Source: Paenibacillus algicola (GTDB taxonomy: Bacteria > Bacillota > Bacilli > Paenibacillales > Paenibacillaceae). Taken from it: a stretch of DNA of 64,000 nucleotides. A program made the position numbers and the translations under genes. Below are positions 18,889-46,927 of this stretch, piece after piece (positions within the stretch are counted from its first letter, which is position 1; each line of letters starts with the position of its first letter). A model generated the notes under the pieces. The model searched no databases and was not told the origin of the DNA. It saw only the letters and a list, made by a program, of their open reading frames with translations. Location: the NCBI RefSeq assembly GCF_005577435.1, contig NZ_CP040396.1, positions 3,228,501-3,292,500 on the forward strand. The letters run 5' to 3'.

Positions 18889-18938
18889 GACCTCACCTCC
18901 CTTCAAGCGGCATACAAGCCAATAAAGCAAGTTGAGCA

Positions 18939-19373: not shown

Positions 19374-19390
19374 TTTCTCACCTCAGTTTA

Positions 19391-20854: not shown

Positions 20855-20862
20855 TTGATCAC

Positions 20863-23686: not shown

Positions 23687-23689
23687 GAT

Positions 23690-27785: not shown

Positions 27786-27787
27786 AT

Positions 27788-28305: not shown

Positions 28306-28325
28306 AATTAATTCTCCCTTCTTAT

Positions 28326-28850: not shown

Positions 28851-28864
28851 GAAGTTAAGCCTCC

Positions 28865-30304: not shown

Positions 30305-30306
30305 GG

Positions 30307-31704: not shown

Positions 31705-32057
31705 GGCCGCTTACCGTTTGCCTCGAGGACGATCTTCAGGATGCCCGTGTCGTTGGAGACGCCCTTGACCGTATACCGCATAAAGTCCAAATAAAAATAC
31801 TGGTCAACCCTTGGGGTATACACCAGTACATCGGGATCGATATGGATAATGACATTGTGGGCGGAAACCCCATCAGCGCTCTGAATCGGCTTGCCGTCCA
31901 GAGTAAACTTCTCGACGATCATCTCCAGCTGCCGGTCTTTTTGGCCGGTTTGTTTAGCATCGTTTGTATAGGTCGTTACCGTGTGGATCTCGGCGAATTC
32001 ATTCGAGTTCATGAAGGTCAGTTGGACATCCTTCGCCATCTGCTCTCGAAGGTTCAT
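31701..32057 (-). CDS. Putative head-tail connector protein
   Basis: 118 residues and beta-rich (EMIVEKFTLDGKPIQ, NVIIHIDPDVLVYTPRVDQYFYLD, LKIVLEANGKRP). It occupies the place of the head-tail joining proteins between capsid genes and minor tail Z. I cannot assign a named family. Confidence 0.6.
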   Translation of the reverse strand: MNLREQMAKDVQLTFMNSNEFAEIHTVTTYTNDAKQTGQKDRQLEMIVEKFTLDGKPIQSADGVSAHNVIIHIDPDVLVYTPRVDQYFYLDFMRYTVKGVSNDTGILKIVLEANGKRP

Positions 32058-32071
32058 AGCCTCTCACCGCC

Positions 32072-32404
32072 TTAGTTTTGGTCGTCAGCTGTCACTTGTT
32101 CGGTGTACCATTCTTCAAATTGGGCGACACGATCCTCCGCTTTCCCAGCTGGATCGATCGATAGTGATTCAAGGAACTCCTTCTGCTCCTCCGCCTTCAA
32201 TTTTGTGAATTGTTCAGGTGTAGTCAGATCATTCAAAAGCGGATTATCCTTATCAGGTTCAGGCTCGTAGAATGTATCCCCTTCTTCCTCTGCAGCCCCC
32301 AGTTCAAGTAATCGCTGAGCTTCTTTTTCGGTCAAACCGAGGATTTCCTTCCCGTGCTGATAAAGTTTTCCGTTATGAATAACCTTGTTAATTGCTCGAA
32401 TCAT
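32072..32404 (-). CDS. Small head-region protein
   Basis: 110 residues. The first ~35 residues (RAINKVIHNGKLYQHGKEI, TEKEAQRLLELGAA) resemble a small domain repeated in Mu-like and other phages. The rest is acidic (EPEPDKDNPLL, AEEQKEFLESL). It lies directly after the major capsid gene, where head-completion proteins are common. The role is unknown. Confidence 0.62.
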   Translation of the reverse strand: MIRAINKVIHNGKLYQHGKEILGLTEKEAQRLLELGAAEEEGDTFYEPEPDKDNPLLNDLTTPEQFTKLKAEEQKEFLESLSIDPAGKAEDRVAQFEEWYTEQVTADDQN

Positions 32405-32424
32405 CGTATTTTCCCTCCTCTAAG

Positions 32425-33459
32425 TTAAAGTACTTTCGCGACAACCCAGCCAGCAACGTTTGCTGGTACAGGCAACGGGCGGGAGAGCATCTGCAGCCAG
32501 CGCTGAGCCGGTTCTACAGTTACCCAGGATTGCGGCGTGATTTTACCCATAACTCGAACGAATTGCTCTGAGCGCGGATCCATGATCACATTCGCTCCAT
32601 AGTGGAACGTGAACTTGTCTCTTGTGGACATGATCGCGATTGTGCCGGCTGGAATGAACGGAACTTCTTGACCAGCATCGTTGGTGTAAGTGCCAGTGTA
32701 GCTGTATACATCCAGTCCAACGTCACGCAGGCGGCCGTGGTAGGTAACACCGTCAGGAAGCAGTGTGGTATCGATCGTACCGACATCCACGCCTCTGTTT
32801 TCGGCCAGCTTAAGGATCTTCGGATGACGCATCAGCGCTACGGCAGCGTCATAATCAGCCAGGACGATATTCGGAGTCGGAGCGTTCCCATCCATGACCA
32901 CTTTACGCTGAGATGCGAGGAATCCAATTGGATCAGAATTCGGATCGCTCCAGAGGTCCGTTCCAGACAGGGTTACGATATTCGTGAAATCGTAATCGAT
33001 AACCTGGCTCACACCTTCACCGACCTGGGTTACTTTGCCGGTGAACATCAGTTCAGCTGCTTGCTGAACAAGACGCCGGGTGATGGTATCCCGGAGATCG
33101 ATGATATCCTTTGCAAGCAGTTTACGGGCCCGCACCTCTGGCTGATCCGGATTGATCAGGTTCTCCCCGGCTGCTCTCACCTTAAGGTCAATAGCAGTGA
33201 TCGGGCGAGCTGGTTTGATCAGGGCCGGCTTGTATTGTTTCGCCGTGAAGCCTGTCCGCTGGATGACCTTGCCCGGCTGCAGTTCGGACACATAAGGTGC
33301 GATCGGCTTATTGCCTTTCATCGTTTGAATTTCTACAGTCTCGGTTTCAAATGACTCGCCGTCTTGGAAGAATGTATCCAGGATATAAGTGCTTGGCGGC
33401 GGCAGCTGACCGATTACTTTCAACAGAGTCGGAAATGAATACAGATCTTTAATGGCCAT
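32425..33459 (-). CDS. Major capsid protein (lambda gpE-like)
   Basis: 344 residues. Motifs throughout (FPTLLKVIGQLPPPSTYILDTFF; IKPARPITAIDLKVRAAGE; TIAIMSTRDKFTFHYG; C-terminal PQSWVTVEPAQRWLQMLSRP) match the lambda gpE HK97-fold family. The length is normal. The neighbouring decoration protein supports a lambda-type shell. Confidence 0.93.
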   Translation of the reverse strand: MAIKDLYSFPTLLKVIGQLPPPSTYILDTFFQDGESFETETVEIQTMKGNKPIAPYVSELQPGKVIQRTGFTAKQYKPALIKPARPITAIDLKVRAAGENLINPDQPEVRARKLLAKDIIDLRDTITRRLVQQAAELMFTGKVTQVGEGVSQVIDYDFTNIVTLSGTDLWSDPNSDPIGFLASQRKVVMDGNAPTPNIVLADYDAAVALMRHPKILKLAENRGVDVGTIDTTLLPDGVTYHGRLRDVGLDVYSYTGTYTNDAGQEVPFIPAGTIAIMSTRDKFTFHYGANVIMDPRSEQFVRVMGKITPQSWVTVEPAQRWLQMLSRPLPVPANVAGWVVAKVL

Positions 33460-33474
33460 CGTTGTGAGCCCTCC

Positions 33475-33858
33475 TTAGTTTACAACCCGTTTGGTATAAA
33501 TTTTTGCGTTGTTGAGCGCAGCTTCGTGGTTTGCGATTGTATCGGTTCCGCCGAAAATCAGAGCTTCGCGATTAAACTCGCCTTGTGTGTAAACCGTAGC
33601 ACGCTGCTGAACAGTCGATGCATCCACGATTTCATCTGCAAGAACAGCCACAGGAACCTTTTGAGCAGCACCGGCAGCTGCTGAATCAACAATCGTGCAG
33701 ATCCACGTTCCGTCAGTCGCGAATCCTGTTCTGGCCATTACGGTACCGCGGGTAAATACAGCACCAGTCGCTGGCTCGATGATGATGGATTGGGTGACGA
33801 TCGGCTGGACCATTCCGGCGATCAGGTTATCATAGGGTACGCTTTCGTATGCTGGCAT
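33475..33858 (-). CDS. Head decoration protein (lambda gpD-like)
   Basis: 127 residues and beta-rich, with VTQSIIIEPATGAVFTRGTVMA near the N-terminus and NNAKIYTKRVVN at the end. It belongs to the gpD family of trimeric capsid stabilisers. It starts at the last base of the protease gene. Confidence 0.88.
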   Translation of the reverse strand: MPAYESVPYDNLIAGMVQPIVTQSIIIEPATGAVFTRGTVMARTGFATDGTWICTIVDSAAAGAAQKVPVAVLADEIVDASTVQQRATVYTQGEFNREALIFGGTDTIANHEAALNNAKIYTKRVVN

Positions 33859-35036
33859 TATTTTCGACCTCCAATCATGTTATTGATTTCTGCAGTAAGG
33901 GCATCGGCTTCGGCTTTAGATACAGCTTCTGGATCTGGCTTCCCAGGCGCTTCGTCCGAATCGACATTGCCTACACCGCTGTTCTGGGCGTCGTTATTAC
34001 GACGAGTACCTTCATTGGCTACACGTTCAGCAGAGGCCTTAACAATCTCCATCGCAGTTTCGCCTGCTGTTTTTCCTTCAGAAATGGCTTTGGCGACGAT
34101 CTCAGCGGCTCCTGGCGCTGTGGCAAGAGCATTCAGTTCAGTGATGCGGCCCCTTTCTTGTGTTACACCAAGATTCACAACCTCGTTGTATAGGTCAGGG
34201 TGCTGTGCTTTCAATTCTTCCAATTTCATGGGCTGTTCTTCCTCCTTTGGTTGCTCTTTAATATTTTTTGGCACTGAAGCAGTCTCAGCGCTATTTTCAA
34301 CCTGTTTGACATCATCCGAAGCTTCCGGTGCAAAAGCCTTTAAATCCAAACCCGCTAGCGGACCCCCACTTCCGAGTAGCTTCTCTGGATCGGTGCCGTC
34401 CTTCAACATGTTATTGATCATGATGTCCCGTATTTGGTTCATCGCTTCCGAAGATATTTCACCATTGAAGCTATTTGTCGCTGTCGATAGCAGCTCTTCT
34501 TCTTCGAAAAGAATCCCGTCTGCAAACCCAAGCTCGACAGCTTTCTGCGCGTTCATCCACGTCTCACTGTCCATCAGGTCGGCTAGTTCCTCGCGTGTTT
34601 TCCCGCTTTTTTTCATGTAAACGTTGATAAGAGACTCATCGACTCCTGCCAACAGGTTTGTACGGCCTGTATGAGCCCTCTTGTCACCGTCGGTAACAAT
34701 GGCAGCATTATGAATCATGAACTGGGCAAGTGGAGCCATACGGATATCATCTGCAGCTAATGCGATATAGGAGGCAGCGCTGGCTGCAACACCCGTGATT
34801 TTAGCCGAAACTTTGCCGGGGTACTCTTTCAAGAGAGTGTACACTTCTGATCCTGCGAAGACAGAACCTCCACCAGAATTGATGTAAAGCTCTACATCTC
34901 CGCCGCCCGCTGCATCCAGTTCCTTTGAAAGCTTGGAGGCACCAATGTAAGGTATACCTAACCAGTCATACAGCCATGCGCTCCCATCACCGATAACCGG
35001 CCCGTTAAGTTTGATCTTCTTCGGCATCTTCTTCAT
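33858..35036 (-). CDS. Head maturation protease, ClpP-like S14 family, fused to scaffold-like region
   Basis: About 392 residues. The ClpP-like half contains INSGGGSVFAG (oxyanion turn), the nucleophile Ser in GVAASAASYIALAAD near residue 90, and the His in FMIHNAA near residue 110. The C-terminal half is helical and charged (ELKAQHPDLYNEVVNLGVTQERG), as expected for a lambda gpC/Nu3-style internal scaffold. It is likely to cleave portal and capsid precursors. The start is uncertain among clustered GTG/ATG codons, and I use the ATG at 35036. It overlaps the portal gene by about 32 bp. Confidence 0.9.
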   Translation of the reverse strand: MKKMPKKIKLNGPVIGDGSAWLYDWLGIPYIGASKLSKELDAAGGGDVELYINSGGGSVFAGSEVYTLLKEYPGKVSAKITGVAASAASYIALAADDIRMAPLAQFMIHNAAIVTDGDKRAHTGRTNLLAGVDESLINVYMKKSGKTREELADLMDSETWMNAQKAVELGFADGILFEEEELLSTATNSFNGEISSEAMNQIRDIMINNMLKDGTDPEKLLGSGGPLAGLDLKAFAPEASDDVKQVENSAETASVPKNIKEQPKEEEQPMKLEELKAQHPDLYNEVVNLGVTQERGRITELNALATAPGAAEIVAKAISEGKTAGETAMEIVKASAERVANEGTRRNNDAQNSGVGNVDSDEAPGKPDPEAVSKAEADALTAEINNMIGGRK

Positions 35037-36615
35037 CACCCCCCTTCAGGCCTTGTTCGCTCTTTCCTGAAACTAAGCCGTTTTGTTCCCGAATCTGCTG
35101 CTCATATGCCAGCTGCCGGACGTTGCTCTCATATTCCGTACCTGTCAGCTCTGCAGCTTCTCGAGCACGGGTACTGAATCCATTCTCGACCCGAATAACA
35201 GCCGCATTTGCTTCCTTCACCGGATCGAGCTGACCCTGCGAAGGTCCGTGCCACTCCGCTTTGGTGTAGGCCTTAAACAGCAGAGGATCATCGAATATAC
35301 CTGGAGCATCGATCCGCCCTTTGATCACTGCCTCAGCGAACCATTCCTCATAGATCGGCTGACAGAAATCTGCTGACATCCACGCCCGCCGCATCCGGAA
35401 CATCTTCCAAGCTTCCAACAAGGCTGCTCTTGACGCAGAGTAGGACGCTGTGAAGTGTTTTAGCAGCAGTTCATACGGAAGCTCAAGCGAAGCGCCTACC
35501 TGCCGGAGGATTGATGTGACGAACGGATCGAAGCCGCTGTTCGGACGCCCCGGATTCGCGATCGTCGCCTTCTCCCCAGGATTCAAGAACTGGACCGCCC
35601 CGACCCCTAGCTGTAAATCTTCATCGCCGCTAGGCAATGGTTCTCCTGTTGGGTTCTCTATCGGACCCTCAGGAGATAGACCGAAGGCATCAGTATCCTC
35701 GCTCTCCGTCTCAATAAAGACGGTGAACATCCCACTAATTACTGCCGCCATTAATTCGGCCTCAGTGTATCTCTCCAGCTGTTTCAGTGATTCGATAACA
35801 GGCGCCAAGATTGGAACGCCTCGGCGCTGCTCCGGCCGCTCTGTCTCCATGAGATGAAGAACATTCCGCCGTCCACTCTCTTCCCCGATGGCCGCAACCC
35901 GCTGCCACTTCATACCCGGGTCAAAGTGACCGGGATGTTTACTGGAGAACCAATAGGCAGCCACCATTCCATCAGCATCAACTTCCACACCGCTCTGCAC
36001 CCGCTTGATAGACTCAAGTGGTTCATTCTTCGGTGTACTGCATCGATCGGCTTCCAGGATGCGGACCCTGAGGTCATAAACGGTATGTTTTCGCTCAAGC
36101 AATGGCAGTAGGACAAAGGCGTCACCGCTCATGACCCACGACAGGAAGGCCAGCTGCTGCAGCTCATAAAAATTTTGAAGCCCGCCGGCATCACAGTCTT
36201 TGGAGTCGGCCCACAAGGAAAACTCCCTTTCAATCTGCCGGCGAAGCAGTGCCGACTTCTCCTCAGACAGGCGCAAAAAATCGGCATCGAAGGAAGGCTT
36301 TAGCTTTAACCCCGTGCCGATTATATTGGTTCTGAGCGTCTTGAGCGCTCCATTCGCGAGTGATCCGCCCATGAAAAGGTCTCTCGCCCGAGGACGGAGA
36401 GCTTCGAGATTCGCGTGGATGTCCTCATCGGCGTTTCCAGCTGCCGGGGTCCATGTTGTGAGCGACTTCTTTCTGCGGCTGGCTCCGTGATCACCGTAAC
36501 CCTGGTTGAACACGTCCTGTACGGCCCGCTGCCGTGCAATCTCCGTTCGGGCCCTTTCACGCTTAGCAGCGAACCCTGGAGCAACAGCGGCCACTGTTTT
36601 ATCCAGCCAGCTCAT
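35005..36615 (-). CDS. Phage portal protein (lambda gpB family)
   Basis: 536 residues. Typical segments are LFMGGSLANGALKTLRTNIIGTGL, the WVMSGDAFVLLPLLE strand, RGVPILAPVIESLKQLERYTEAELMAAVISGMFTVFIE, and FTASYSASRAALLEAWKMF. It forms the dodecameric DNA gate at the head vertex. It overlaps gpW upstream by 4 bp. The acidic C-terminus (GGDEEDAEEDQT) is a usual ending. Confidence 0.94.
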   Translation of the reverse strand: MSWLDKTVAAVAPGFAAKRERARTEIARQRAVQDVFNQGYGDHGASRRKKSLTTWTPAAGNADEDIHANLEALRPRARDLFMGGSLANGALKTLRTNIIGTGLKLKPSFDADFLRLSEEKSALLRRQIEREFSLWADSKDCDAGGLQNFYELQQLAFLSWVMSGDAFVLLPLLERKHTVYDLRVRILEADRCSTPKNEPLESIKRVQSGVEVDADGMVAAYWFSSKHPGHFDPGMKWQRVAAIGEESGRRNVLHLMETERPEQRRGVPILAPVIESLKQLERYTEAELMAAVISGMFTVFIETESEDTDAFGLSPEGPIENPTGEPLPSGDEDLQLGVGAVQFLNPGEKATIANPGRPNSGFDPFVTSILRQVGASLELPYELLLKHFTASYSASRAALLEAWKMFRMRRAWMSADFCQPIYEEWFAEAVIKGRIDAPGIFDDPLLFKAYTKAEWHGPSQGQLDPVKEANAAVIRVENGFSTRAREAAELTGTEYESNVRQLAYEQQIREQNGLVSGKSEQGLKGGDEEDAEEDQT

Positions 36616-36851
36616 AGATCAATCGGAACATACCTGCGCACTTTTCGACGCGGGCCCAGTCCCTGCTCAAAACGAATGGCATCATTCAACTGCTTTTGCC
36701 AATACTGAATCTGCCGCATGACCTCGGTTAGGTTCACTCTGGTGAGCGATCGGCCGGCGATGCTGTACGATTGCCCCGTAGAGAGCGCCAGCTCCGCTGC
36801 CATCCAGGCATCCAAGTGTTGCTGAGCTACTTCTTTTGTGTACAATGGCAT
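36612..36851 (-). CDS. Head-tail joining protein gpW-like
   Basis: 79 residues from the ATG at 36851; the GTG four codons upstream abuts the AGGAGG site. The content (KEVAQQHLDAWMAAELALSTGQSYSIAGRSLTR, EVMRQIQYWQKQL) is the lambda gpW signature. It plugs the portal after packaging. Its location between terminase and portal is the same as in lambda. Confidence 0.9.
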   Translation of the reverse strand: MPLYTKEVAQQHLDAWMAAELALSTGQSYSIAGRSLTRVNLTEVMRQIQYWQKQLNDAIRFEQGLGPRRKVRRYVPIDL

Positions 36852-36876
36852 TTTCCTATTCACCTCCTCTCAAGCG

Positions 36877-38748
36877 TTAAACGCTGCTTGCCACGCCTCT
36901 TTTCTTGCTCTTCCTAGCGCGCTGCTGACTACCTGTATCCGGATCCACCTTCGGGCCATTGGGCTGCTGTTCAATCGGTAAGGAAAGATTCGGCCGGAGC
37001 AGCTCCACCACGGCCCGATTATAGACCGCCAAGTCAAAGGGCTCGTTTCGATCACGGGTCTTCACCCAGACCTTATACTTGACGCCGTCTTTCTTGATCG
37101 TCCTGTGAGTCTCAGCAGTCAGGCCGAGGAAATATTCTTGCGTATATCCCTTGCCTTCATCATCAGGGAAGTGACAATACAGTGGTCCTGGCTCCCCGAC
37201 CTTCAGGCTGTCGTATACCTTCACCTTGCCGTCATCCACACCTAAGTGGATAAGGATCGCATTGTACATCTGGGTCCGGGAATGCCGGGCGATAAACGGT
37301 ACATGCTCCGCTGTTTTGGGGTTAATCCCCTGGCCTTTGATCGCGTAAATCCGGCGATGCTCCCGAGCACGGGTGAATTCGTACACTTCTTTGGTGTAGT
37401 GACCACCAGAGTCCATGCAAGCTCCAATGATGCGGAATTCCCGGCCCTCTGGACCTATCCAAGAACGACAAAGAAACCTGTCCAGGTCCTGCCACACTTC
37501 GGGCCTGTTCAAGTCTCCATAAATCCGTTGGTATTCGATACGCCATGATTCTTTTCCAGCCCCCCAGCCAATAATCTCGACTTCAAAGCGATCGTCCTGG
37601 GTATCAATGGCTGCCGTGAGCACCTTCACGCCTTCAGGCACCTCATACTCATATCTCTCGCGACGCTGCATAAGCGTTTTGTCGTCCATGCCTTTGACCT
37701 TCGTCTCCCACGGCTCTCCAAGAACCGTATTGACGAATACTTTCAGCTTGTCGACGCCCTCTCTCTTGGCCACCAAAAAAGCCTTTGCAACCTCGCGCCA
37801 ATCTGACCATGGGCTGGAAAGCTGATTGATATGAAATCCCCGGCGGGTGGAGTGCTCTTTCCTGGAAACCCAGGCACCCTCGCCCCGCTTCCATTCCTTT
37901 TCTGAGCCAAGATTGCCGCAGTATGCGCAGCGATGCTCGGCTTTGGTCACAACGATCTCACCGGACTCCGAGACATAATGCTCGAATACGATGCCGTTGT
38001 CTTCGCCCCGCTTGAATTGCAGGGGCTGTAACTCCCCACAGTGAGGGCAGGGCAGGCACCATTGCTCCATCGTGCTGTCTTCGTACAGCTGATGGATGCG
38101 AGATGTTTCCTTGTCCACTGGCGTTGAGACGAATAGATGCCGGCGCTTATGCCGGAATGTCTTGGTCCGGGCCGTAGCTAGGGCAATCGGATCACCCTCC
38201 TTGCCGGAAGATACCGGGAACCGGTCCACCTCATCGCACAGAACAATCTGCACTGGCCGGGAAGACAGTCCCGAAGGCGCGTTGGCTCCGACGATCGTCA
38301 CATAACCGCCAGGGAAGGATTTCTCTTCGATGGTGTTGCTGCTGTCCCTCGACTTGGCGACGCCGATCTTATTCCGCAGCACTTCGCTGTTATTAATCAT
38401 AGGAGTGAGCCGCTTTTTGGAGTAGGCCTGGATCAGATCCTCGTTTGGAAGCACGTGCATAATCGGGCAAGGCTCCTGATCGATGTATGAACCGGTCACA
38501 TTCAGCAGAAATTCGGTTTTTCCCACCTGAGCTGAGGCCATGATAACGACCTCTTCCCAGTGCTCTATGGAATCCATGATCTCCCGCTGATATTCCGCCC
38601 GAGACGTTCGCCAAGGCCCCGCTTCCGCGCTGCTCTCTGTGGTTAGTACCCGGTTCATATCCGCCCATTCTGAGACGCTCAGGCGACGTCTAGGCTCCCA
38701 CTGCTTGTTGGCCTGTGAAAATAAATCAACCGTCTTCCGGGCTGCCAT
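36877..38748 (-). CDS. Terminase large subunit (lambda gpA family)
   Basis: About 623 residues from MAARKTVDLF, which overlaps the small-subunit gene by 23 bp. Walker A variant ASAQVGKT lies at residues 71-78 and a Walker B-like VQIVLCDEVD at about 160. A zinc-like pair (CPHCGELQPL and HRCAYCGNLG) and a C-terminal nuclease region with DTQDDRFEVEIIGWGAGKESW follow. It belongs to the GpA group that makes staggered cuts at cos sites and pumps DNA into the prohead. Confidence 0.94.
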   Translation of the reverse strand: MAARKTVDLFSQANKQWEPRRRLSVSEWADMNRVLTTESSAEAGPWRTSRAEYQREIMDSIEHWEEVVIMASAQVGKTEFLLNVTGSYIDQEPCPIMHVLPNEDLIQAYSKKRLTPMINNSEVLRNKIGVAKSRDSSNTIEEKSFPGGYVTIVGANAPSGLSSRPVQIVLCDEVDRFPVSSGKEGDPIALATARTKTFRHKRRHLFVSTPVDKETSRIHQLYEDSTMEQWCLPCPHCGELQPLQFKRGEDNGIVFEHYVSESGEIVVTKAEHRCAYCGNLGSEKEWKRGEGAWVSRKEHSTRRGFHINQLSSPWSDWREVAKAFLVAKREGVDKLKVFVNTVLGEPWETKVKGMDDKTLMQRRERYEYEVPEGVKVLTAAIDTQDDRFEVEIIGWGAGKESWRIEYQRIYGDLNRPEVWQDLDRFLCRSWIGPEGREFRIIGACMDSGGHYTKEVYEFTRAREHRRIYAIKGQGINPKTAEHVPFIARHSRTQMYNAILIHLGVDDGKVKVYDSLKVGEPGPLYCHFPDDEGKGYTQEYFLGLTAETHRTIKKDGVKYKVWVKTRDRNEPFDLAVYNRAVVELLRPNLSLPIEQQPNGPKVDPDTGSQQRARKSKKRGVASSV

Positions 38749-39253
38749 GTTCCAATTCGCCCCCAATCTTATCTGGGGTGTATTTTGCCAGGGATGACAG
38801 CGCGGTTTCGATCTCCCGGCGGACAATTGACTCTACTACATCCGCAGGCTCATTCTCGCATTCGGTAGCAATCCTGCTGGGCACCCCGAGCAGCCGTGAT
38901 TTAGTGGTAAGGATCAGGTCGGACAAGAGGCGTTCCACATCTGCCGCTGCATGCAGGTTGCCTTTCATTTGCTCCAGCTCAAGCAGGGCCTTTTCTGCCT
39001 TTGTTTTCTCGTGCTCCGTCTTATAATCAATCAACCTCGGCTTCGCATCTTCCTCTTTACCACCTGAAACATGCTCACAGTATGCCTGCACCGATTCGCC
39101 GAGTTTGTATTTGCCCCGGCCGACCTGCCGCAGGATTCCATCACGGGTTAATTGACGCAACCATTGGGGCGTTTTCCCTACGATCGCAGCCAATTCGGAT
39201 GTCAATATTTCTTTGTCCTGCAGCTTATCTGCTTTCGCCTTTGATTTTGTCAA
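38726..39253 (-). CDS. Terminase small subunit (lambda Nu1-like)
   Basis: 175 residues. The N-terminal winged helix (EILTSELAAIVGKTPQWLRQLTRDGIL) resembles Nu1, and the C-terminal helical part carries LTTKSRLLGVPSRIATECENEPADV, typical of Nu1-type subunits. It should recognise cos DNA and hand it to the large subunit. Confidence 0.9.
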   Translation of the reverse strand: MTKSKAKADKLQDKEILTSELAAIVGKTPQWLRQLTRDGILRQVGRGKYKLGESVQAYCEHVSGGKEEDAKPRLIDYKTEHEKTKAEKALLELEQMKGNLHAAADVERLLSDLILTTKSRLLGVPSRIATECENEPADVVESIVRREIETALSSLAKYTPDKIGGELEHGSPEDG

Positions 39254-39279
39254 TCAACCCGCCTCACTTTCGTCTTTAG

Positions 39280-39480
39280 ATGGAATTGTACTGTTTTGAA
39301 TATTTCAGGCATTATTCGAAGCGAAAAATAAAAACGCCCTCGATCGGCTGCCTGCCAAGCGAAAGCGAAAGCAAAATTTTGAAAATAAAACTGCACCAGA
39401 ATCGGGGTCATTCGCACCCGCACTCATTTTGAACCTCCAGAAGGACCCGTGAACTCCTGAGCGCCCGCCTCAGCTCTTTA
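39280..39480. other. Candidate cos region upstream of terminase
   Basis: A non-coding stretch of about 230 bp precedes the small terminase gene. It contains a direct repeat AAGCGAAAGCGAAAGC (39359-39372 area), AT-rich segments and an inverted repeat GGGT, 7 nt, ACCC around 39406-39419. With a lambda-type terminase, cohesive-end sites would be expected here. A 40-codon minus-strand frame with a good ribosome site begins near 39425, but its content looks non-coding. Confidence 0.35.
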
Positions 39481-39514
39481 AACGTATCTCATGAATGTCT
39501 GGTGGTTCGGAAAC

Positions 39515-39676
39515 TCAAACGTCTGTATGCCCCTTTATATTCGTTCTGATGACGTTAACCTTTACCTTCAATCCACCTCGAAGTTTAAGCTCGGCCGCCG
39601 CCTTCTCAAACTCCTTTGCATACCGACCCGACTCACCCTTACTGTCTTTAGTCAGGAATAATCCTCTCCGGTCCAT
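39515..39676 (-). CDS. Small basic phage protein, possibly frameshifted at the 3' end
   Basis: About 53 residues (MDRRGLFLTKDSKGESGRY, then KAAAELKLRGGLKVKVNVIR). The ribosome site is poor, and a longer start at 39700 (MKWLYLATM) is possible. It overlaps the upstream gene by 29 bp. A +1 frame past its end continues as IQTFEFPNHQTFMRYV, which reads like natural protein, so the gene may have lost its C-terminus by a 1-base change. No function is known. Confidence 0.5.
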   Translation of the reverse strand: MDRRGLFLTKDSKGESGRYAKEFEKAAAELKLRGGLKVKVNVIRTNIKGHTDV

Positions 39677-39884
39677 TGTCGCCAAATACAACCATTTCAT
39701 TAGGATCAACAATTCCACCATCATACAGGCGGATAGGGGTAGTCTTGACCACATCTTCAGTAATCGTTGGCATCGAGGCGATCAGCAGCTGCTGCGCTGT
39801 CTCCTTATCAAACTCTTTCAGCAGCTCAGTGTGAATGGCCTTGGCAGCCTGGGCGACTGCTTTAGCTTTTCTCGGGTTACTCAT
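39648..39884 (-). CDS. Hypothetical phage protein
   Basis: 78 residues from MSNPRKAKAVAQAAK, preceded by GGGAGGT. It is a helical protein with AIHTELLKEFDKETAQQLL and a C-terminal part rich in Pro and Asp (IVDPNEMVVFGDNGPERIIPD). It overlaps the tiny zinc-finger gene upstream by 8 bp. The function is unknown. Confidence 0.65.
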   Translation of the reverse strand: MSNPRKAKAVAQAAKAIHTELLKEFDKETAQQLLIASMPTITEDVVKTTPIRLYDGGIVDPNEMVVFGDNGPERIIPD

Positions 39885-40035
39885 TCCATGTACCTCCCTT
39901 AAGCCATGACGTATCAATCGGCTGATGACCACCTTTGAATGTCTGGATCACTCTGCGCTTGCCGCACTTGCTGCATTCTTGGTACCTGTGGATGCTGAAT
40001 CTCTTCACCGTTTTCCATCTGTGGAAGATGTGCAT
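39877..40035 (-). CDS. Tiny zinc-ribbon phage protein (52 aa)
   Basis: An ATG at 40035 lies about 9 bp after AGAGGA and opens MHIFHRWKTVKRFSIHRYQ, then ECSKCGKRRVIQTFKGGHQP and DTSWLKGGTWNE. The CSKCGKRR knuckle and the Trp-rich end resemble short zinc-finger proteins found near terminase genes in Bacillales phages. Only one CxxC is present, with His residues as possible further ligands. Confidence 0.7.
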   Translation of the reverse strand: MHIFHRWKTVKRFSIHRYQECSKCGKRRVIQTFKGGHQPIDTSWLKGGTWNE

Positions 40036-40072
40036 TCTTCTCATTCCTCTCATGGAATTAAAAAAGCCACTC

Positions 40073-40741
40073 TCATGAGTGACCTATGTCCAGATTAACG
40101 TCAAACCTCCTCGGAGCTGCATGCAGGAATGCTATGATATTCCCATTGTTGCTCTTCGGTAGAGTCTCAAAATGATCTCTCACCTCAGCTTCCCATTCTT
40201 CATGGGTGATGCCTGCGGATTGGATCTCCTCAATCTGACCATAGATCATCTGATGCTGCTCTTCCGTTATCCTCATATGCTGTTTGTTTTTCTTCTGACT
40301 GAAGTATTTCAGATACGTTTTGATATAGGAATGATCATCGTTTTTAAAAGCGATGTATTTATTTAATCTTTTATCATTCGTTAGTACTTTATCATTCGTT
40401 ACTAGTGTTGGATTTTCCACAACTGGAAAACCCGATCCTGGATGCTCGTATATATCGATCTCCCAGGACATGATTTTACCTCGGCTGTCCTTGATGACGT
40501 AACGCTTGATATAGCCGAATGACTCAAGCTCTTTGAGCGCAGCCCGGATGCTGTCCTTACCCTCGGTCGTATGCTTGGTCAGCTCGTCCAGATAGAAGCG
40601 GAAATGGTCTGGCTTGGTCAGCATGTAGGCGAGCAAGCCGCGGGCTTTGAAAGAGAGCCTGGCATCCTGCAGCGAGCTGTTAACGATCCGGGTGAAGGGC
40701 GGGGCTCTTTTGCCTGATTTATTGACTCGGTGTGTTGCCAC
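40073..40741 (-). CDS. HTH replication-initiator-like phage protein
   Basis: 222 residues. The N-terminal winged helix (RIVNSSLQDARLSFKARGLLAYMLTKPD, DSIRAALKELESFGYIKRY) is the type found in phage replisome organisers. The C-terminal helical tail (EEQHQMIYGQIEEIQSAGITHEEWEAEV) could bind a partner. It contains a 14-bp direct repeat in its own coding sequence (40370-40401). It sits just upstream of the packaging genes, far from the early replication operon, and is the second initiator-like gene of the prophage. Confidence 0.75.
   Translation of the reverse strand: MATHRVNKSGKRAPPFTRIVNSSLQDARLSFKARGLLAYMLTKPDHFRFYLDELTKHTTEGKDSIRAALKELESFGYIKRYVIKDSRGKIMSWEIDIYEHPGSGFPVVENPTLVTNDKVLTNDKRLNKYIAFKNDDHSYIKTYLKYFSQKKNKQHMRITEEQHQMIYGQIEEIQSAGITHEEWEAEVRDHFETLPKSNNGNIIAFLHAAPRRFDVNLDIGHS
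40370..40401. repeat. Direct repeat TTTATCATTCGTTA inside the initiator-like gene
   Basis: Two exact 14-bp copies at 40370-40383 and 40388-40401, 18 bp apart, encode the repeated TNDK(V/R)L in the protein. They adjoin an AT-rich stretch. They may be iterons of a second or former origin. Confidence 0.5.
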
Positions 40742-40751
40742 GTTTGTTCAG

Positions 40752-41951
40752 TTAAAACGCCAGCAGATAATCCTGGACTGCATCTGCCGCAACGAAGCCA
40801 TGTCCGTTGTTGTTAGGATGTATTCCGTCACTTGTACGAGTCGGATCTACCGCCCACAATCCGCTGTCTGGTGATGACTCCCATCCTTTGTTACAGTCAA
40901 TACCTACAATACCGTCATTATTATTCATAACCCATGCGTTAAACTTACCTCTTGCACTATTCGCCCCTGGTGCAAAATTAGCATTGATTGGTGTTTGGTT
41001 TTGTAGTGTTGTCCATCCATCTGTTGATGTTGTCCTAGGATTAACAGTAACTTGAGCTGTCGGAATGCCCATATTCCAGTACACTTGGTGTATCTTCAAG
41101 ATATTTTCTTTTAAGACTTCGAACGTGGTTGAACTATCGGCAAGGTCATTGCTCGAATACTGCACTATTACCAAATCACAATTCTTTAACATTTGTAATT
41201 GGTTAGTTCGTTTGATAAGCTGAACGAAATCTGATGCCTTCTGACCATTCTGCCCTGCTGTGACATATCCCCACCCAGCTCTTAAAGCTCCGATTTGCAT
41301 GAAACCAACTTCGCCAACCGGAAAATTATCGACTCTTGTATTGGTGTGGCCCGCCCCGGTGGACGAACTACTACCACAAAAACCGACCGTTTTGAAGTTT
41401 ACCCTGTGCGCTGGTTCGCCTAAAATGACTAAAGGTGCGTATGCATACTTTGGGTTATTGTTCTGACTTGTGAAGGTCCCTGCTGTAGCATCCCCCTCCA
41501 TAAGGCCCTCTCCGGGATTCTGCGCTCCAATGACAGTAAGTCCGGTAGGATGTTTTTCTCCTGTATTCAGAAGCACATGAGTGCGTACAAAAAACCTCGT
41601 ACCTTTTTTAATACTGATTCTAATTTCATCCGTTATGGTCCTTGCTCCTAACGGCAGAGTTTTGTGACTATTGCCGTTGTCAAAAAATAGTGGGTATGTT
41701 ACCCCATCTACATCGATAGATACATTAATTTTAGGAACACCTAAATTTGTTGACCTGCCGTCATTATAAAAATTACCATACATAAGAACCAGTGATTCTA
41801 AGTCACACAAGGCTTCGTGCATCGATCTGTATGTCACATCTATGGCTGTTCCGTCAGACGTTCCGCTATACCATTTACCGCGAGAGGCAACGGACGCAAG
41901 CCCCTTTGGTTTATCCATAGCCAATGCCAGCGCTATTCTTCCTAAATTCAC
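40752..41951 (-). CDS. SGNH/GDSL-family hydrolase (probable tail-associated esterase)
   Basis: 399 residues. The last ~200 residues are an SGNH hydrolase: block I VGFCGSSSSTG with the nucleophile Ser, block III IVQYSSNDLA with the Asn, and block V DGIHPNNNGHG with catalytic Asp and His. The first ~190 residues are beta-rich and may be a carbohydrate-binding or attachment part. Phages use such esterases to deacetylate surface polysaccharide during adsorption. It starts as the preceding structural gene ends. Confidence 0.82.
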   Translation of the reverse strand: MNLGRIALALAMDKPKGLASVASRGKWYSGTSDGTAIDVTYRSMHEALCDLESLVLMYGNFYNDGRSTNLGVPKINVSIDVDGVTYPLFFDNGNSHKTLPLGARTITDEIRISIKKGTRFFVRTHVLLNTGEKHPTGLTVIGAQNPGEGLMEGDATAGTFTSQNNNPKYAYAPLVILGEPAHRVNFKTVGFCGSSSSTGAGHTNTRVDNFPVGEVGFMQIGALRAGWGYVTAGQNGQKASDFVQLIKRTNQLQMLKNCDLVIVQYSSNDLADSSTTFEVLKENILKIHQVYWNMGIPTAQVTVNPRTTSTDGWTTLQNQTPINANFAPGANSARGKFNAWVMNNNDGIVGIDCNKGWESSPDSGLWAVDPTRTSDGIHPNNNGHGFVAADAVQDYLLAF

Positions 41952-42683
41952 CTACCCCACCGCCTTTCCCTTGACCGCCACATTCCCACCAACTACTGCG
42001 CCAATCCTCGCCCGGAATGAATACCCTGCCGGAACCTCAACCTGCCAGCTCTCTGGAGCTGTATTGCTACCGCCTGTGGTCTGAGTGCCAAACTTGGTCG
42101 GATCAGTCACGTTAAAAGCGGTGTGCGGCGTGTAAACCCCGCTCGGTCCCGCAATCTCGAATACGACTGTGCGGCTGGTGCTGGTGCCTGTGATCTCAAA
42201 CGTCAGTGTATGATTGCTGTTCTCCGGAGCGAATGGGGTGCCGTTGCCGGCAGCCGTAGCGTTGTTCTGCAGCGTCACTGTTTGAGCTGCTGCCGTTCCC
42301 AACACCCTCACCCTTTGAGCTCCGTCCGGATCAACACCGTCAGCCGGGTTTACGATTTGTCCTGCACTATTGTACTGCCGGCCTGGTACCGGCGTTTCGT
42401 AATATGAGCTGCTCATGATATGCGTCACTCCTTCATCATTTTGATTGGTGGTCCTGCTGCTGGCCAGCAGGCTGTATGCTCTTTGCTCTGGCGATCCTTG
42501 GACCCGAGTGCGCTGATTGGTGATGGACAGAAGGTGAATGGGTACGATCAGCCGCTGGAGCGCTGCTGATGTTTGCATCAGCTCGAACACCCTGCGCGGG
42601 ATGCCGTTAAAAAACACTTGGCCGAAGGATAATCCGTGCTCAGGTATCGTCGGCCCGATATAAATGGACTGGTTTCGTATCAC
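41952..42683 (-). CDS. Putative phage structural protein with YIGPT-type N-terminal domain
   Basis: 243 residues from a GTG 9 bp after GGAGG. Residues 7-50 (IYIGPTIPEHGLSFGQVFFNGIPRRV) repeat the small domain found at 30307-30636. The remainder is Thr/Asn-rich and beta-rich (VTLQNNATAAGNGTPF, VVFEIAGPSGVYTP), as in fibre or decoration proteins. Its pairing with the SGNH hydrolase suggests a receptor-binding or capsid-surface unit. The function is inferred. Confidence 0.65.
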   Translation of the reverse strand: MIRNQSIYIGPTIPEHGLSFGQVFFNGIPRRVFELMQTSAALQRLIVPIHLLSITNQRTRVQGSPEQRAYSLLASSRTTNQNDEGVTHIMSSSYYETPVPGRQYNSAGQIVNPADGVDPDGAQRVRVLGTAAAQTVTLQNNATAAGNGTPFAPENSNHTLTFEITGTSTSRTVVFEIAGPSGVYTPHTAFNVTDPTKFGTQTTGGSNTAPESWQVEVPAGYSFRARIGAVVGGNVAVKGKAVG

Positions 42684-42720
42684 TTTGTATCACCTCCCTC
42701 CTCCCTTTTGAGCAAAAGAA

Positions 42721-42742
42721 AAAGCACCGTTTAGGGTGCTTT
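42721..42742 (-). terminator. Rho-independent terminator
   Basis: On the minus strand AAAGCACC, loop CTAAAC, GGTGCTTT is followed by a T-run. It falls over the stop codon of the 42731-42967 gene and separates it from the structural block. Confidence 0.8.
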
Positions 42743-42967
42743 AATTAATAAGTCTTCTCTTTGTAACCTTTTAACTCTCAATTCCATTGGATCGAATGAA
42801 AGCCTCATTTCATTCTTATGTCGTTCCTCTTTTTGATGATTAAAAAATAATAACAGTGCTTCTTCAGTCGTTTCTGCTAATACAAGTTCTTCTTTATCGA
42901 ACCATTCGACCAGGTAGTAATGTTTATATCTAATTTCATTCACCTCCTCAGTACCCTTGTCAGGCAT
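42731..42967 (-). CDS. Small phage protein, start uncertain
   Basis: Up to 78 residues. The core reads YKHYYLVEWFDKEELVLAETTEEALLLFF and ends with a basic RVKRLQREDLLIKAP. The ATG at 42967 has AAGGG only 3-4 bp away. A perfect AGGAGGTG lies further in, and the only in-frame codon at correct spacing from it is ATT at 42934, giving a possible AUU start. No family is recognised. Confidence 0.55.
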   Translation of the reverse strand: MPDKGTEEVNEIRYKHYYLVEWFDKEELVLAETTEEALLLFFNHQKEERHKNEMRLSFDPMELRVKRLQREDLLIKAP

Positions 42968-42986
42968 CGACCCTTAGATGTTTATC

Positions 42987-43274
42987 TCAAAGCTTAATCC
43001 ATTCTCTTACTTCTTTTAAGCCTCTATATGTTTTAGAAAGCATGCTGTTTTCTTTCAGGTAATTCTCACCTCGTTCGGTGACTTCAGGCCCAATTTTGTT
43101 GACATGTGGTCTGTCATCTGCCCAAAACAATCCTGTTAGGTACTTTTCTCTTGATAGAAAATTCACTGCGTCATCAAACTCACCTTCACTTACATCGAAA
43201 TCCTCTTCTGTAAGCGGAGTGTTTCCTTCGTTAACTTCTTTCAAGATGGCATAGCGTAATTTATCCTTATTCAA
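42987..43274 (-). CDS. YjcQ-family protein
   Basis: 95 residues from a TTG 9 bp after GAGGAGG, reading (M)NKDKLRYAILKEVNEGN, then LSREKYLTGLFWADDRPHV and TERGENYLKENS. This matches the YjcQ family of small winged-helix proteins found in phages and mobile elements. It is probably DNA-binding and of unknown target. Confidence 0.78.
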   Translation of the reverse strand: MNKDKLRYAILKEVNEGNTPLTEEDFDVSEGEFDDAVNFLSREKYLTGLFWADDRPHVNKIGPEVTERGENYLKENSMLSKTYRGLKEVREWIKL

Positions 43275-43376
43275 ATCGACCCACCTCCTCAACATCATCA
43301 TTCGACGCCATAGGAGGAAATACCTTCCACTATGTCGAAAATACCAGATTAGAAAGGTTAGAAAGGAGAGTGTTAA

Positions 43377-43520
43377 ATGGACTTTATATCCAAAAGAATA
43401 ATAGCGGTTGTTGCGGGAATTATCTTTGTCGCGTTAGTGATGCCTGCTATCGAATACGTGTTCAATGACATGATGTTCAACCTGAAAAATTGGAATGGAC
43501 CAACAATAGCCCCTCGTTAA
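43377..43520 (+). CDS. Small single-pass membrane protein (47 aa)
   Basis: An ATG 8 bp after AAAGGAG opens MDFISKRIIAVVAGIIFVALVMP, then IEYVFNDMMFNLKNWNG and ends at IAPR. There is one transmembrane helix and a short outer or inner tail. Similar peptides occur in Bacillus phages near regulators. A terminator begins within its last codons. Confidence 0.7.
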   Translation: MDFISKRIIAVVAGIIFVALVMPAIEYVFNDMMFNLKNWNGPTIAPR

Positions 43521-43533
43521 GGGGGCTATTGTT
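43502..43533 (+). terminator. Terminator of the 47-residue membrane protein gene
   Basis: The 12-bp perfect stem AACAATAGCCCC and GGGGCTATTGTT encloses the stop codon region, with TTATTTAA after it. Confidence 0.85.
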
Positions 43534-43559
43534 TATTTAAGACACATTTACATACCAAA

Positions 43560-43631
43560 AGCGGACAGCGGGACTCGAACCCGTCTTCTCCAGCTTGGAA
43601 GGCTGGGGTACTGCCTTTATACCATGTCCGC
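43560..43631 (-). tRNA. tRNA-Gly, anticodon UCC (phage-borne)
   Basis: On the minus strand the sequence folds as a cloverleaf: acceptor GCGGACA with TGTCCGC, D-loop containing AAAGGCAG, anticodon stem CCAGC/GCTGG with loop CTTCCAA (anticodon TCC), and T-arm ACGGG-TTCGAGT-CCCGC (loop TTCGAGT). The discriminator base is U and the CCA end is not encoded. It lies inside the prophage between structural genes and the integrase, so it probably supplements translation of phage late genes. Confidence 0.93.
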
Positions 43632-43635
43632 AGAT

Positions 43636-43697
43636 AAACGCCCCTCGCGAACCTCAGACACGTAAAAGGTGCTCTCCAGCAGCCGAGAGGGGCGTTT
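43636..43697. other. Long-range stem-loop next to the tRNA
   Basis: An 11-bp perfect stem, AAACGCCCCTC (43636-43646) with GAGGGGCGTTT (43687-43697), encloses 40 nt. It starts 5 bp from the tRNA 5' end on the minus strand, so it could be a leader hairpin or processing element. The plus-strand version has no T-run. Confidence 0.45.
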
Positions 43698-43872
43698 CAA
43701 CTTGTTTAGAACATTTGACCCGCTTGTTCTACCCTTGCGGCTCTACTGCAGGTCTTATTGCGAGGAGCTAACTGGTGCCGCTCGTCTTATCGCCTACCAC
43801 CGTCAAACAGGTATGGTTGTTGTGTCGGGTGATGTTCTGAAAACCGATAAAGGATTTTTACACCACTCCAAT

Positions 43873-43945
43873 AAAAAAGGCCGGCAGCTGCCGACCCGAT
43901 CTGCAGAGCATTCATGCCCCTGTGGTGTCCTCTTCTCGATTTCCT
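43873..43945 (-). ncRNA. Candidate small RNA with own terminator
   Basis: A minus-strand unit has an extended -10-like TGATATATT (complement of 43954-43962) and a conserved-looking core AAGAGGACACCACAGGGGC. A strong terminator follows (stem GGTCGGC, loop AGCT, GCCGGCC, then six T residues, 43873-43896). No coding frame longer than a few codons fits. I recall near-identical AGAGGACACCACAGGGGC segments in other Bacillales phage regions, but have no function for it. The rest of the 43.7-44.05 kb stretch shows no supported gene. Confidence 0.4.
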
Positions 43946-44048
43946 ATGCTACAAATATATCACGTCTAAAACCTAATGAGGTATTTATAGTTACTTAATT
44001 TATTCTTTTTGATTACTTTTCTTTTTCTTTGAGTTTTCGTCGATATCA

Positions 44049-44078
44049 TTGCGGCTCTCCTTTTGGATTGGTTATAAT
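44049..44078 (+). promoter_or_regulatory. Integrase promoter
   Basis: TTGCGG and TATAAT with 18-bp spacing lie 45 bp before the integrase start. Inverted copies of CCTTTTGG (44059-44066) and CCAAAAGG (44098-44105) bracket the -10 and leader and could form an operator or a leader hairpin. Confidence 0.65.
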
Positions 44079-44122
44079 AGACGCGATCATGATAAAACCA
44101 AAAGGAATGAGGTTTGCTCATT

Positions 44123-45766
44123 ATGGCATTAAGAGCTCAGGATTTATTGGATTTGGGAATTGAAAGCATCCTCAATTATCTGCGACGTTCACGAGCTGAT
44201 GAAGAGCAAGAGCGGCGCACCGGTGAGGATGTGTTGCAGGCTCAGAAAGAGCTCATGGACCGCGTGCTAGAGCCTCTAGGCATCCCATACGACCAGAGAT
44301 CAGAGGTTGGGTCCGGAGATAAAATATCCACCCGCCCCGTCTTCCAGACCGTCATCAAGGACCTCCAGTCCGGAAAATTCCAAGCCATTGCAGTCAAAGA
44401 GATATCTCGTATGGGCCGCGGTTCTTATACGGACATGGGAGTTATTTATGATCTTATTACAGATAAGCGGATATTCATCATCACGCCATACAAGACCTTT
44501 GACCCGAACAACCCATCCGATTTGAGACAAATCAGATTTGAGTTATTTATGTCCAGAGAGGAATTTGAGACGACCAGGGAAAGGCTGTTTGGCGGCCGGG
44601 TTAACCGCGCCATGGAAGGTAAGTGGGTATCCGGGGAGGCTCCCTTCGGTTTCGACTACAACCCTGCCACTAAAAAGCTTGATATCAACGAGCAGCAGGC
44701 AGAGCAGATTAGAGCAATTTTTGATTTGTATGTGAATGGCGTCCCTGATGGTGCAGATGGTAAGCGCAGGGATGTTAGCTTTAGAGCGCTGGCTACGTAT
44801 TTATCGCGACACACCGTCATCTGCACGCCTAAAGGCAAAAAGAACTGGCATCCCACGTATCTAAAGGGCGTTCTACAAAATGAGCGGTTTATCGGGATCC
44901 TGAAGTTCAGAACCACCAAGCGCGTTAATGGGAAGATTGAGACTCGGCCTGAGGAAGAGCATATTATCGTCCATGATGCGATGCCCCGGATCATAGACCA
45001 GGAAACATGGGACAAAGCTCAGGCAAAGATCAATGACACCGCGCATAAGCCAAGAACAAAAATGGACTTCTCTCCCTGTGAATTGGCCGGTCTATGTGTG
45101 TGCTACAAATGCGGCGGGAGAATGGTTCGACAATACAGCGTACAAAAATACGAAAAGCAAACCGGTGATGTGGTAGAGTATCATAAGGAATTCCTATGGT
45201 GTACTCGACCTGGCTGCACATTTGTGAAATATCGATCTGTAGAGGAAGACCTGTTAGACGTTCTCCGGTATTTCAAAGATTTATCAGCAGATAGACTGCG
45301 AGAAGAATTGGTGGCCAATCTGGCGCAGGATGGACAGCAAAACAATTTTATTCCAGATGTAAACGAGTATATTGAGCAGCGAGCCAAGGAACTCAAAAAC
45401 CGAATGAATTTCATCTTTGAAAAATATGAGTCCGGTCGATATACTGATGAAATGTTTGATGAGCGTAAAGCTGAGATCGATAAAGGGCTTGCGGAATTGT
45501 CGGAACTTGAAAAGAAGTATAACAGCGAAAAGCCCGAGTCCAAAGAATACAAAATTGATGTGGATGTCGTAAGAACAAACCTTAATTCGCTTCTCGATGC
45601 CTATGCAGAGGCCGAGGATAAGTCAGATAGGAATCGCATAATGCGGAGTGTATTCGAGCACGTAACGATCGAATTGATCGAGCGTGGACGCGGCAGAATA
45701 CCATCAAAGTATAATATTTATCCCGTATTTAAAAAGGGATTGACTGATTCTGTAATTTTGGTATGA
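44123..45766 (+). CDS. Large serine recombinase (phage integrase)
   Basis: 547 residues from the ATG at 44123 (a TTG at 44114 is an alternative). The catalytic serine is Ser23 in NYLRRSRADEE, followed by resolvase motifs (SGKFQAIAVKEISRMGRG, REEFETTRERLFGG). The recombinase domain (GEAPFGFDYNP), a zinc ribbon (CYKCGGRM, then WCTRPGC) and a coiled coil (FEKYESGRYTDEM, ELEKKYNSEK) complete the usual layout. It would catalyse attP x attB integration, and excision when joined by a directionality factor. Its stop lies 12 bp from the prkA fragment. Confidence 0.95.
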   Translation: MALRAQDLLDLGIESILNYLRRSRADEEQERRTGEDVLQAQKELMDRVLEPLGIPYDQRSEVGSGDKISTRPVFQTVIKDLQSGKFQAIAVKEISRMGRGSYTDMGVIYDLITDKRIFIITPYKTFDPNNPSDLRQIRFELFMSREEFETTRERLFGGRVNRAMEGKWVSGEAPFGFDYNPATKKLDINEQQAEQIRAIFDLYVNGVPDGADGKRRDVSFRALATYLSRHTVICTPKGKKNWHPTYLKGVLQNERFIGILKFRTTKRVNGKIETRPEEEHIIVHDAMPRIIDQETWDKAQAKINDTAHKPRTKMDFSPCELAGLCVCYKCGGRMVRQYSVQKYEKQTGDVVEYHKEFLWCTRPGCTFVKYRSVEEDLLDVLRYFKDLSADRLREELVANLAQDGQQNNFIPDVNEYIEQRAKELKNRMNFIFEKYESGRYTDEMFDERKAEIDKGLAELSELEKKYNSEKPESKEYKIDVDVVRTNLNSLLDAYAEAEDKSDRNRIMRSVFEHVTIELIERGRGRIPSKYNIYPVFKKGLTDSVILV

Positions 45767-45790
45767 TGATGACACCTACTATTCATCCGC
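45767..45790. other. Prophage-chromosome junction (right att site)
   Basis: The integrase frame ends at 45766, and the disrupted prkA frame begins (reading leftward) to diverge in the codons for ISADE at 45779-45795. The crossover must lie in or near this 24-bp stretch. The exact core cannot be defined without the left junction. Confidence 0.75.
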
Positions 45791-46645
45791 GCTGATCAGT
45801 GCAAAGCGGCCGGCTTTGAAATTGCCCTCCTGTGTCAGGGACAGCAGGTTCCACAGAAACTTCTCGTCACACTTCAGCATCTCCTGAAATTCCATCAGGC
45901 CGCGGTTCGCCTTGTTCAGCTCTCCATCAAAGCGGTACGCCCTTGGATCTGATTCCGAGCCGAATTCAGTAATCGTTGAGAAATCAATGCTGCCCGTCAG
46001 ATCGGCAATGTCCTGTGATTTGGGATCGGAAGGACTGAATGTGCCGATGCCGGTGCGGCCTTCCTCCGAGATCAGCACGCGCTCTACCATCACAGACTGG
46101 ATGTCACCGCCGTATTCGGTTCTTAGCCTCATCTGGCAGGAGGGACAGAGATTGCCTTCAATTCTGACGCCGAGCTCCTGCTCCACCTCGGGCCTTAGCT
46201 CTAGCGGGATCAGATGCAGCGGCTCCTCGTGCATGGGACAGCCCGCAATCGCATATACTGCACCGCCGGGCGTTCGTGAATACTTCTCCAGTCCCCGCTT
46301 TAGCAGCGTAACGAGTGTCGATTTGCCGCCGCTGACAGGTCCCATCAGCAAAAGAATCCGTTTTCTAACGTCCAGACGCCGGGCCGCAGAATGAAAATAT
46401 TCCTCCACAAGCTTTTCCACCGCACGATCGAGCCCGAAGATTTCCTGCTCAAAAAACTTGTATTTTTTGCGTCCGCCGCTCTCCTCCACGCCGTAGGATT
46501 CAATCATGTCATAGACCCGCGCATGAGCAGTCTTCGCCGGCGCCGGGTTTGTTTTCAACAATTCTATATAATCTTTGAATGTACCTTTCCATGCCAAGCG
46601 GTCGCTTTCTGCCTGATACGATGCGATGCGTTCAAAAATATCCAT
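45779..46645 (-). pseudogene. prkA: Serine protein kinase PrkA, 5' part only, interrupted by prophage
   Basis: 288 residues from the ATG after AGGAGGTCATGGG. The N-terminus MDIFERIASYQAESDRLAWKGTF, the AAA-type Walker A GPVSGGKST near residue 110, the CPSCQMRL pair and the segment SLTQEGNFKAGRFALISADE are PrkA. The family protein is about 630 residues, and this frame stops right after ISADE, exactly at the phage junction. The lost half would carry the remaining AAA lid and the kinase-like C-terminal domain. PrkA has been connected with sporulation in Bacillus. Excision would restore the gene if the left half is present. Confidence 0.92.
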
Positions 46646-46927
46646 CCCATGACCTCCTATGACTTCATACTTTGAGGATTGGTTCTTTTCGCTTCCCAAG
46701 ACTCCTTCACGCCTTCAGCCACCGAAAAAAGTGTATTACATACCTATGCGGCAGGCGCGGAATAGTTGACCTCATTTCATAGGAAAGCCGCTCTTTTTTC
46801 GCCTAGAGCCTCCGAATTTGCGGCAAGGAGACGCGCACCTGTTCCCTGCATGTTATACTGATGGAACAAATAATTCGCGGCGCAAGCGGCCTAAACAGAC
46901 TATGTATGGACATAAAGGAGAGAAGCC

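Follow-up and report, generated by a model that had tools for sequence, protein, structure and literature searches.

Insertion of a prophage with an SprA-like integrase into the Glu288 codon of prkA in Paenibacillus algicola: a possible gene-reconstitution element

The stretch of Paenibacillus algicola DNA analysed here (hereafter the window; 64,000 nucleotides, G000:C1:3228501-3292500) comes from a single-contig genome of 4,475,055 bp that is 99.97% complete and contains SpoIVA, one marker of a spore former. Codons 1-288 of prkA lie on the minus strand at 45782-46645 and match AAA_PrkA at E=4.5e-94 (profile positions 2-275 of 358). This 5' half ends in ISADE and is followed by a TAG at 45781-45779 that is supplied by the phage arm, and the stop of the integrase ORF is located 12 bp from the TAG and 15 bp from the last prkA codon. 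A sequence-only reading of the window had placed the insertion inside prkA from this break, and the rest of the gene was found where that reading expected it, left of position 1 in minus orientation. Codons 289-631, recognised from a PF06798 match and the sequence, occupy positions 4021-5052 (minus strand) of locus L002, 8 kb left of the window. The match (G000:C1:3220545-3221294, minus strand, in an open frame of 351 aa) is the only one to the PrkA C-terminus in the genome, so there is no second intact prkA; such a second copy is what the same reading had named as evidence against itself. When the two halves are joined at codon 288/289, they form a 631-aa PrkA frame with zero stops. A spoVR-like gene was recognised by eye at L002 1242-2687.

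Compared by eye across nine genomes, the two junctions have only the dinucleotide GA in common in every genome; it makes up positions 1 and 2 of the Glu288 codon. The GA is located at 45783-45784 at the right junction and, with coordinates taken from the junction sequence, at L002 5054-5055 at the other. A 2-bp crossover is expected of a serine integrase, and this GA is probably the crossover site. The integrase (44114..45766, plus strand) has Resolvase and Recombinase domains, and its best matches among the 198 phage records matched are SPbeta YokA/SprA and relatives, with 42-43% identity over 96-97% of its length, which places it in the SprA family of large serine integrases.

The prophage body fills 1..45783 of the window and continues left to L002 5055; the distance between the two GA cores gives a whole prophage of about 52,729 bp. 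Nineteen of the 20 larger prophage proteins submitted matched a PHROGs family. Encoded on the minus strand are the terminase large subunit (36877..38826; phrog_15, E=5e-216), portal protein (35005..36615; phrog_21, E=2.4e-124), major head protein (32425..33459; phrog_29, E=5.1e-68), the sheath of a contractile tail (28865..30304; phrog_23, E=1.1e-71), tape measure protein (24927..27785; phrog_1272, E=1.6e-59), and endolysin (17369..18163; phrog_2742, E=1.9e-52), and the matches also include a DnaB-like helicase, a DnaD-like loader, RecT-like and FtsK-like proteins, a tail fibre, a baseplate, and a head protease. By its gene content, the prophage looks like a complete contractile-tailed temperate phage. 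It also contains a tRNA-Gly (TCC) gene, close to the integrase (43560-43631, minus strand).

Beside the other junction lies a 70-aa ORF (L002 5322-5534; genome 3221822-3222034, minus strand), a candidate excision factor. Its place is equivalent to that of sprB in SPbeta, where no other gene lies between sprB and the attachment site. A phmmer search of 5463 ORFs with this ORF recovered homologues in seven other prkA genomes and a free relative (E 1.7e-33 to 1.7e-3), and the next hit was SPbeta SprB, a weak match at E=0.014; with SprB as the query, the 70-aa ORF was returned, again weakly, at E=0.025. Single-pair BLASTP gave 30% identity with E=4e-6, an HMM of the Paenibacillaceae excision factors reached SprB at E=0.33 only, and a profile comparison between the 70-aa-ORF family and SprB gave E=0.0014 but a probability of 17.5%. 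The ORF is a probable recombination directionality factor, SprB-like by position and weakly so by sequence.

The free relative is a 50,586-bp contig titled Pseudoxanthomonas sp. J31 (L006; NZ_KI783311.1). Its integrase is 80% identical to that of the window and runs straight into the left-end genes, and its junction, ACTATTCATAGTCAGTG, corresponds by eye to the right arm and left arm of the window joined around TCAT, as expected for attP. No PrkA match was found in the J31 genome. The contig is probably a contaminating phage, and it looks like the circular form of a Paenibacillaceae relative of the prkA phage. Given these features, we have hardly any doubt that the phage is inserted in prkA with an architecture that allows excision.

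The same site is used elsewhere in the Bacilli. Related integrases were found at 7 loci on GTDB genome contigs, in at least 12 of 394 family genomes (E<=1e-90) and at least 17 of 398 class genomes (E<=1e-70), with at most three candidates per genome scored in both sets, and at 33 IMG/VR loci. Among the 12 family genomes, prkA is split in eight (G000, G203, G210, G244, G247, G263, G264, and G286) and whole in four (G271, G293, G301, and G373; L063, L064, L065, and L066). The integrase lies next to a prkA half in 10 of the 17 class genomes, and no prkA half was seen in the roughly 1.5-kb flanks of the other seven. In IMG/VR, where many contigs end at the integrase, prkA adjoins it at 7 of the 33 loci, three of which duplicate genomes of this survey wholly or almost so: L072 and L087 match G102 and G264, respectively, without a difference where they overlap, and L079 shares 98.7% identity with G533. 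When P. ginsengihumi (G102) and Tuberibacillus calidus (G103) are added, and G101 (P. terrae PIC167) and G247, with PrkA matches at the same places, are counted once, prkA is cut at codon 288 by related integrases in 19 whole genomes. Both halves are in hand in 17 of these, and all 17 joined genes are free of stops (631 or 632 aa); the remaining two are G498, with only the 5' half seen and the 3' half outside the 20 kb fetched, and G264, with prkA in three pieces. The element of G263 is in the opposite orientation. In G271 (L063), the SprA-like integrase abuts, by eye, a frame resembling a sugar-nucleotide epimerase; together with the whole prkA of the four integrase-bearing family genomes, this indicates that the integrase family uses other targets too.

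Two further searches give no frequency for the split gene. The exact junction pattern ISADE-TAG occurs only in G000 among the 398 class genomes, but the pattern allows no mismatch and misses TAG-less elements; a PF06798 survey found a match in 380 of the 394 family genomes and gives roughly the 160 best matches, which does not allow split genes to be counted. In genus g17, 14 of 16 genomes have no PF06798 match, and the other genomes among the 394 surveyed have one. G062 (L121), taken for a split prkA by open-frame length, was rejected: its site is uninterrupted and the gene frameshifted. An extra PrkA copy with an apparent frameshift is located at C1:3849168-3849947 of G028.

A second attachment site lies upstream in the same gene. 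In G264 (L061, L062, L132, and L133), prkA has another break near codon 138 (CPMHE), where a different serine recombinase is found, and L079 shows this attachment arm at the corresponding position, so in both G264 and L079 the gene is cut at both sites. The identity of L079 with G533 holds up to the codon-138 break, where the 5' half of G533 is uninterrupted, indicating that the second insertion differs between near-identical strains. A relative of the codon-138 recombinase adjoins prkA codons 1-143/144 in 3 of 70 IMG/VR loci found (L134, L136, and L137). In G203, two integrases with identical nucleotide sequences lie 38 kb apart inside prkA (C11 678053-754006; L051-L053), and excision-factor and integrase ORFs adjoin between the two prophage copies; from this arrangement, we read the insertion as a tandem double prophage.

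The eight prkA elements that were measured cover a wide range of sizes: 31,386 (G629), 18,381 (G533), 6,172 (G680), 4,627 (G664), 3,948 (G565), 3,188 (G760), 3,076 (G546), and 2,215 bp (G499). In the 2-6 kb elements, no phage structural genes were recognised, the integrases are open, and the prkA halves are intact. The 2.2-kb element of G499 contains the integrase, a 55-aa ORF that resembles an excision factor by eye, and otherwise short ORFs only. An excision-factor HMM with this 55-aa ORF in its seed found homologues in G533 (E=8.9e-19) and G629 (E=4.9e-6) but no convincing match in G546, G760, G565, G664, or G680 (best E=0.25, in G664). A Pfam scan of six cargo proteins, as 260-aa fragments, assigned a disulphide oxidoreductase, read as TrxB-like, to G760 (the G546 ORF is 89% identical), a peptidase M29 to G565, TauE/SafE to G664, and GerA, GerAC, and spore-permease genes, a germinant-receptor-type operon, to the 6.2-kb element of G680 (L240 and L251). 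The integrases of G546, G760, G565, G664, and G680 form one clade in a tree in which 4 of 35 integrases were left out by the motif filter (G286, G103, G629, and G498).

G546 and G760 are distant genomes whose elements of about 3 kb carry the TrxB-like cargo at the same position. A comparison of their prkA genes gives pN 0.051 and pS 0.597 (omega about 0.04), with both halves alike and synonymous divergence near saturation, and the cargo gene has a pS of 0.70. If the element is ancestral to both, prkA would have been split there and yet strictly conserved throughout. Since a permanently broken gene would decay, regular reconstitution of prkA is the simplest reading for this pair, and we consider reconstitution in the small relatives quite likely. 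This evidence of selection concerns those relatives and may extend to the phage of the window by analogy.

Without PrkA, both B. subtilis and B. anthracis are impaired in sporulation (PMC4415436 and PMC13001217, in excerpt), and the prophage thus splits a gene used in sporulation, its sole copy, into two parts that are both intact, with its own site-specific recombinase at the junction, as in elements of the skin and SPbeta kind. By these features it belongs with these elements, and its target is apparently unreported: no report of prkA as the target of an inserted element was found among the open-licence PMC papers listed by the searches, and the term prkA is absent from PMC13141910 and PMC10083194. 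The closest parallel is SPbeta in spsM of B. subtilis, whose SprA/SprB-family excision rebuilds spsM during sporulation (excerpts of PMC4191935 and PMC6957869). Both have an SprA-family integrase at one junction and, at the opposite one, a small ORF at the sprB location, and both interrupt a sporulation-linked gene that is exactly restorable. They differ in the target and in the phage, a 134-kb SPbeta-type genome as against a contractile-tailed phage of 52.7 kb, and excision of the prkA phage is predicted from its sequence. Phi3T and its relatives, inserted in the Bacillus gene kamA (PMC6957869, in excerpt), are likewise serine-integrase prophages in a mother-cell gene, with varying bodies and recurring recombination units, but the integrase of phi3T shares only about 28% identity with that of the prkA phage and the target is kamA. 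Skin in sigK and the elements in spoVFB, spoVR, and gerE (excerpt of PMC6957869) and in yabG (excerpt of PMC10747680) also bear recombinases within sporulation genes, and some are reduced. The prkA elements of 2-6 kb are comparable to the reduced ones, differing from the skin type in their target and in the host-like cargo that small ones carry.

We infer the following course for the phage of the window. A temperate contractile-tailed phage would integrate through its SprA-like large serine integrase in the Glu288 codon of the only prkA of its host, leaving a 288-aa PrkA fragment that ends at a TAG from the phage arm. Excision at the GA dinucleotide by the integrase and the SprB-like 70-aa factor would restore the exact 631-aa gene, both upon induction of the phage and, most probably, in the mother cell during sporulation. 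The mother cell dies anyway; the spore would keep the prophage, and the restored prkA would be used. As a whole, this explanation seems to us rather more probable than its rivals taken together. For its developmental component, the reconstitution of prkA in the mother cell by this particular phage, we see an even balance. The proposal of the sequence-only reading that the prophage is a regulated gene-reconstitution element accordingly stands as far as the insertion in the sole prkA, exact restorability, the SprA/SprB-family unit, and recurrence across Bacilli are concerned; the regulated part lacks a sigma-E/K promoter above chance before the excision-factor gene.

This promoter result also suits ordinary lysogeny, in which codon 288 would merely be a conserved attachment site, the lysogen would be prkA-null, and excision would occur on induction only and have no developmental role. 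In SPbeta, a mother-cell promoter drives sprB, the gene on which the timing of excision depends (PMC4191935 and PMC6957869, in excerpt). A consensus scan before the G000 excision-factor gene gave p=0.441 for sigE and p=0.492 for sigK, no better than chance, though such a scan can miss a real promoter; the three SPbeta-type controls gave sigK p=0.016 (SPbeta itself), 0.007, and 0.007. Among the nine Paenibacillaceae-type loci scanned (eight prkA genomes and the free J31 phage), G102 alone was significant (sigE p=0.024), and none of four further elements was, the G664 ORF being a weak candidate. A mother-cell sigma-E/K promoter before the excision factor is a trait of the SPbeta example and not one of the recombination unit itself.

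The complete appearance of the phage and the sporadic occurrence of the insertion likewise fit lysogeny: prkA is split in 2 of 60 sampled genomes of genus g5, and all four known split g5 species have a close intact relative (synonymous difference 0.05-0.24). Between G203 and G244, the recombination ends are common and the interior is not, in the stretches compared, while G244 and G247 share 96% nucleotide identity in prkA and only 68% in their integrases. Phages thus come and go at the site, and intact halves there prove little. The pN/pS of split g5 prkA against the nearest intact relative is 0.014-0.028, like that of intact genes (median 0.022 for 36 intact pairs), and is uninformative if the insertions are recent. 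On the other hand, phage-poor 2-6 kb elements persist at codon 288 with open integrases and intact prkA halves, and the integrase belongs to the SprA family, of which a known member acts in sporulation (PMC4191935, in excerpt). Some small elements look old, while the large prophages have close intact sister species. We regard ordinary lysogeny as a serious but lesser possibility for the phage of the window.

A dead or frozen insertion, with prkA permanently lost and a prophage unable to excise, is very improbable, given an open, full-length integrase, two stop-free prkA halves, and two junctions that agree around TCAT with the attP arms of the free J31 relative. That the prophage was misplaced into prkA during assembly is scarcely credible for a single contig of such completeness, with the same architecture in separate assemblies and an identical integrase on a 52,665-bp prophage contig in IMG/VR, which may derive from the same genome.

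If mother-cell reconstitution holds, prkA joins the cut-and-rebuilt sporulation genes sigK, spsM, kamA, spoVFB, spoVR, gerE, and yabG. At this one site, complete phages, tandem prophages, and elements of only a few kilobases appear to form a series, and since the large prophages have close intact sister species and some small elements look old, the path from parasite to developmental switch can be asked about directly. By recurring in different genomes, the insertions also provide natural replicates for testing when the cell needs PrkA. We lean slightly towards the view that codon 288 has long served Bacilli as a developmental excision site and has been colonised repeatedly: SprA-type units would arrive there in the form of phages, and in some lineages they would persist as elements of 2-6 kb, some with host cargo, because the dying mother cell rebuilds prkA and the spore retains the element; the phage of the window would represent the entry stage.

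The sequences before the integrase genes provide a lead in this direction. Of 20 loci, 16 were scored (the motif missed G286, G263, G629, and G498), and sigE p<0.05 was obtained only in G664 (0.013) and G244 (0.034). TATAAT occurs upstream of the integrase in 6 of 9 large, free, or unsized elements and 0 of 6 small ones (p=0.028, post hoc), and CATA shortly before the integrase start in 2 of 9 and 5 of 6, respectively (p=0.041, post hoc), as in the CATACAAT of G664; five of the six small elements belong to one integrase clade. These are hints, and a lead only, that domesticated integrases may have moved under a mother-cell promoter.

The sigma-E-like promoter that had been suggested upstream of prkA corresponds to a promoter-like block at 46727..46771 (minus strand), GGTCAACTATTCC...CATAGGTATGTAATAC. 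Its fit to the sigma-E consensus is weak, but the block is genuinely conserved: CATAG(G/T)TATG precedes prkA in 31 of 52 aligned upstream regions (four genomes included twice), usually with GGTCAACT-like bases upstream.
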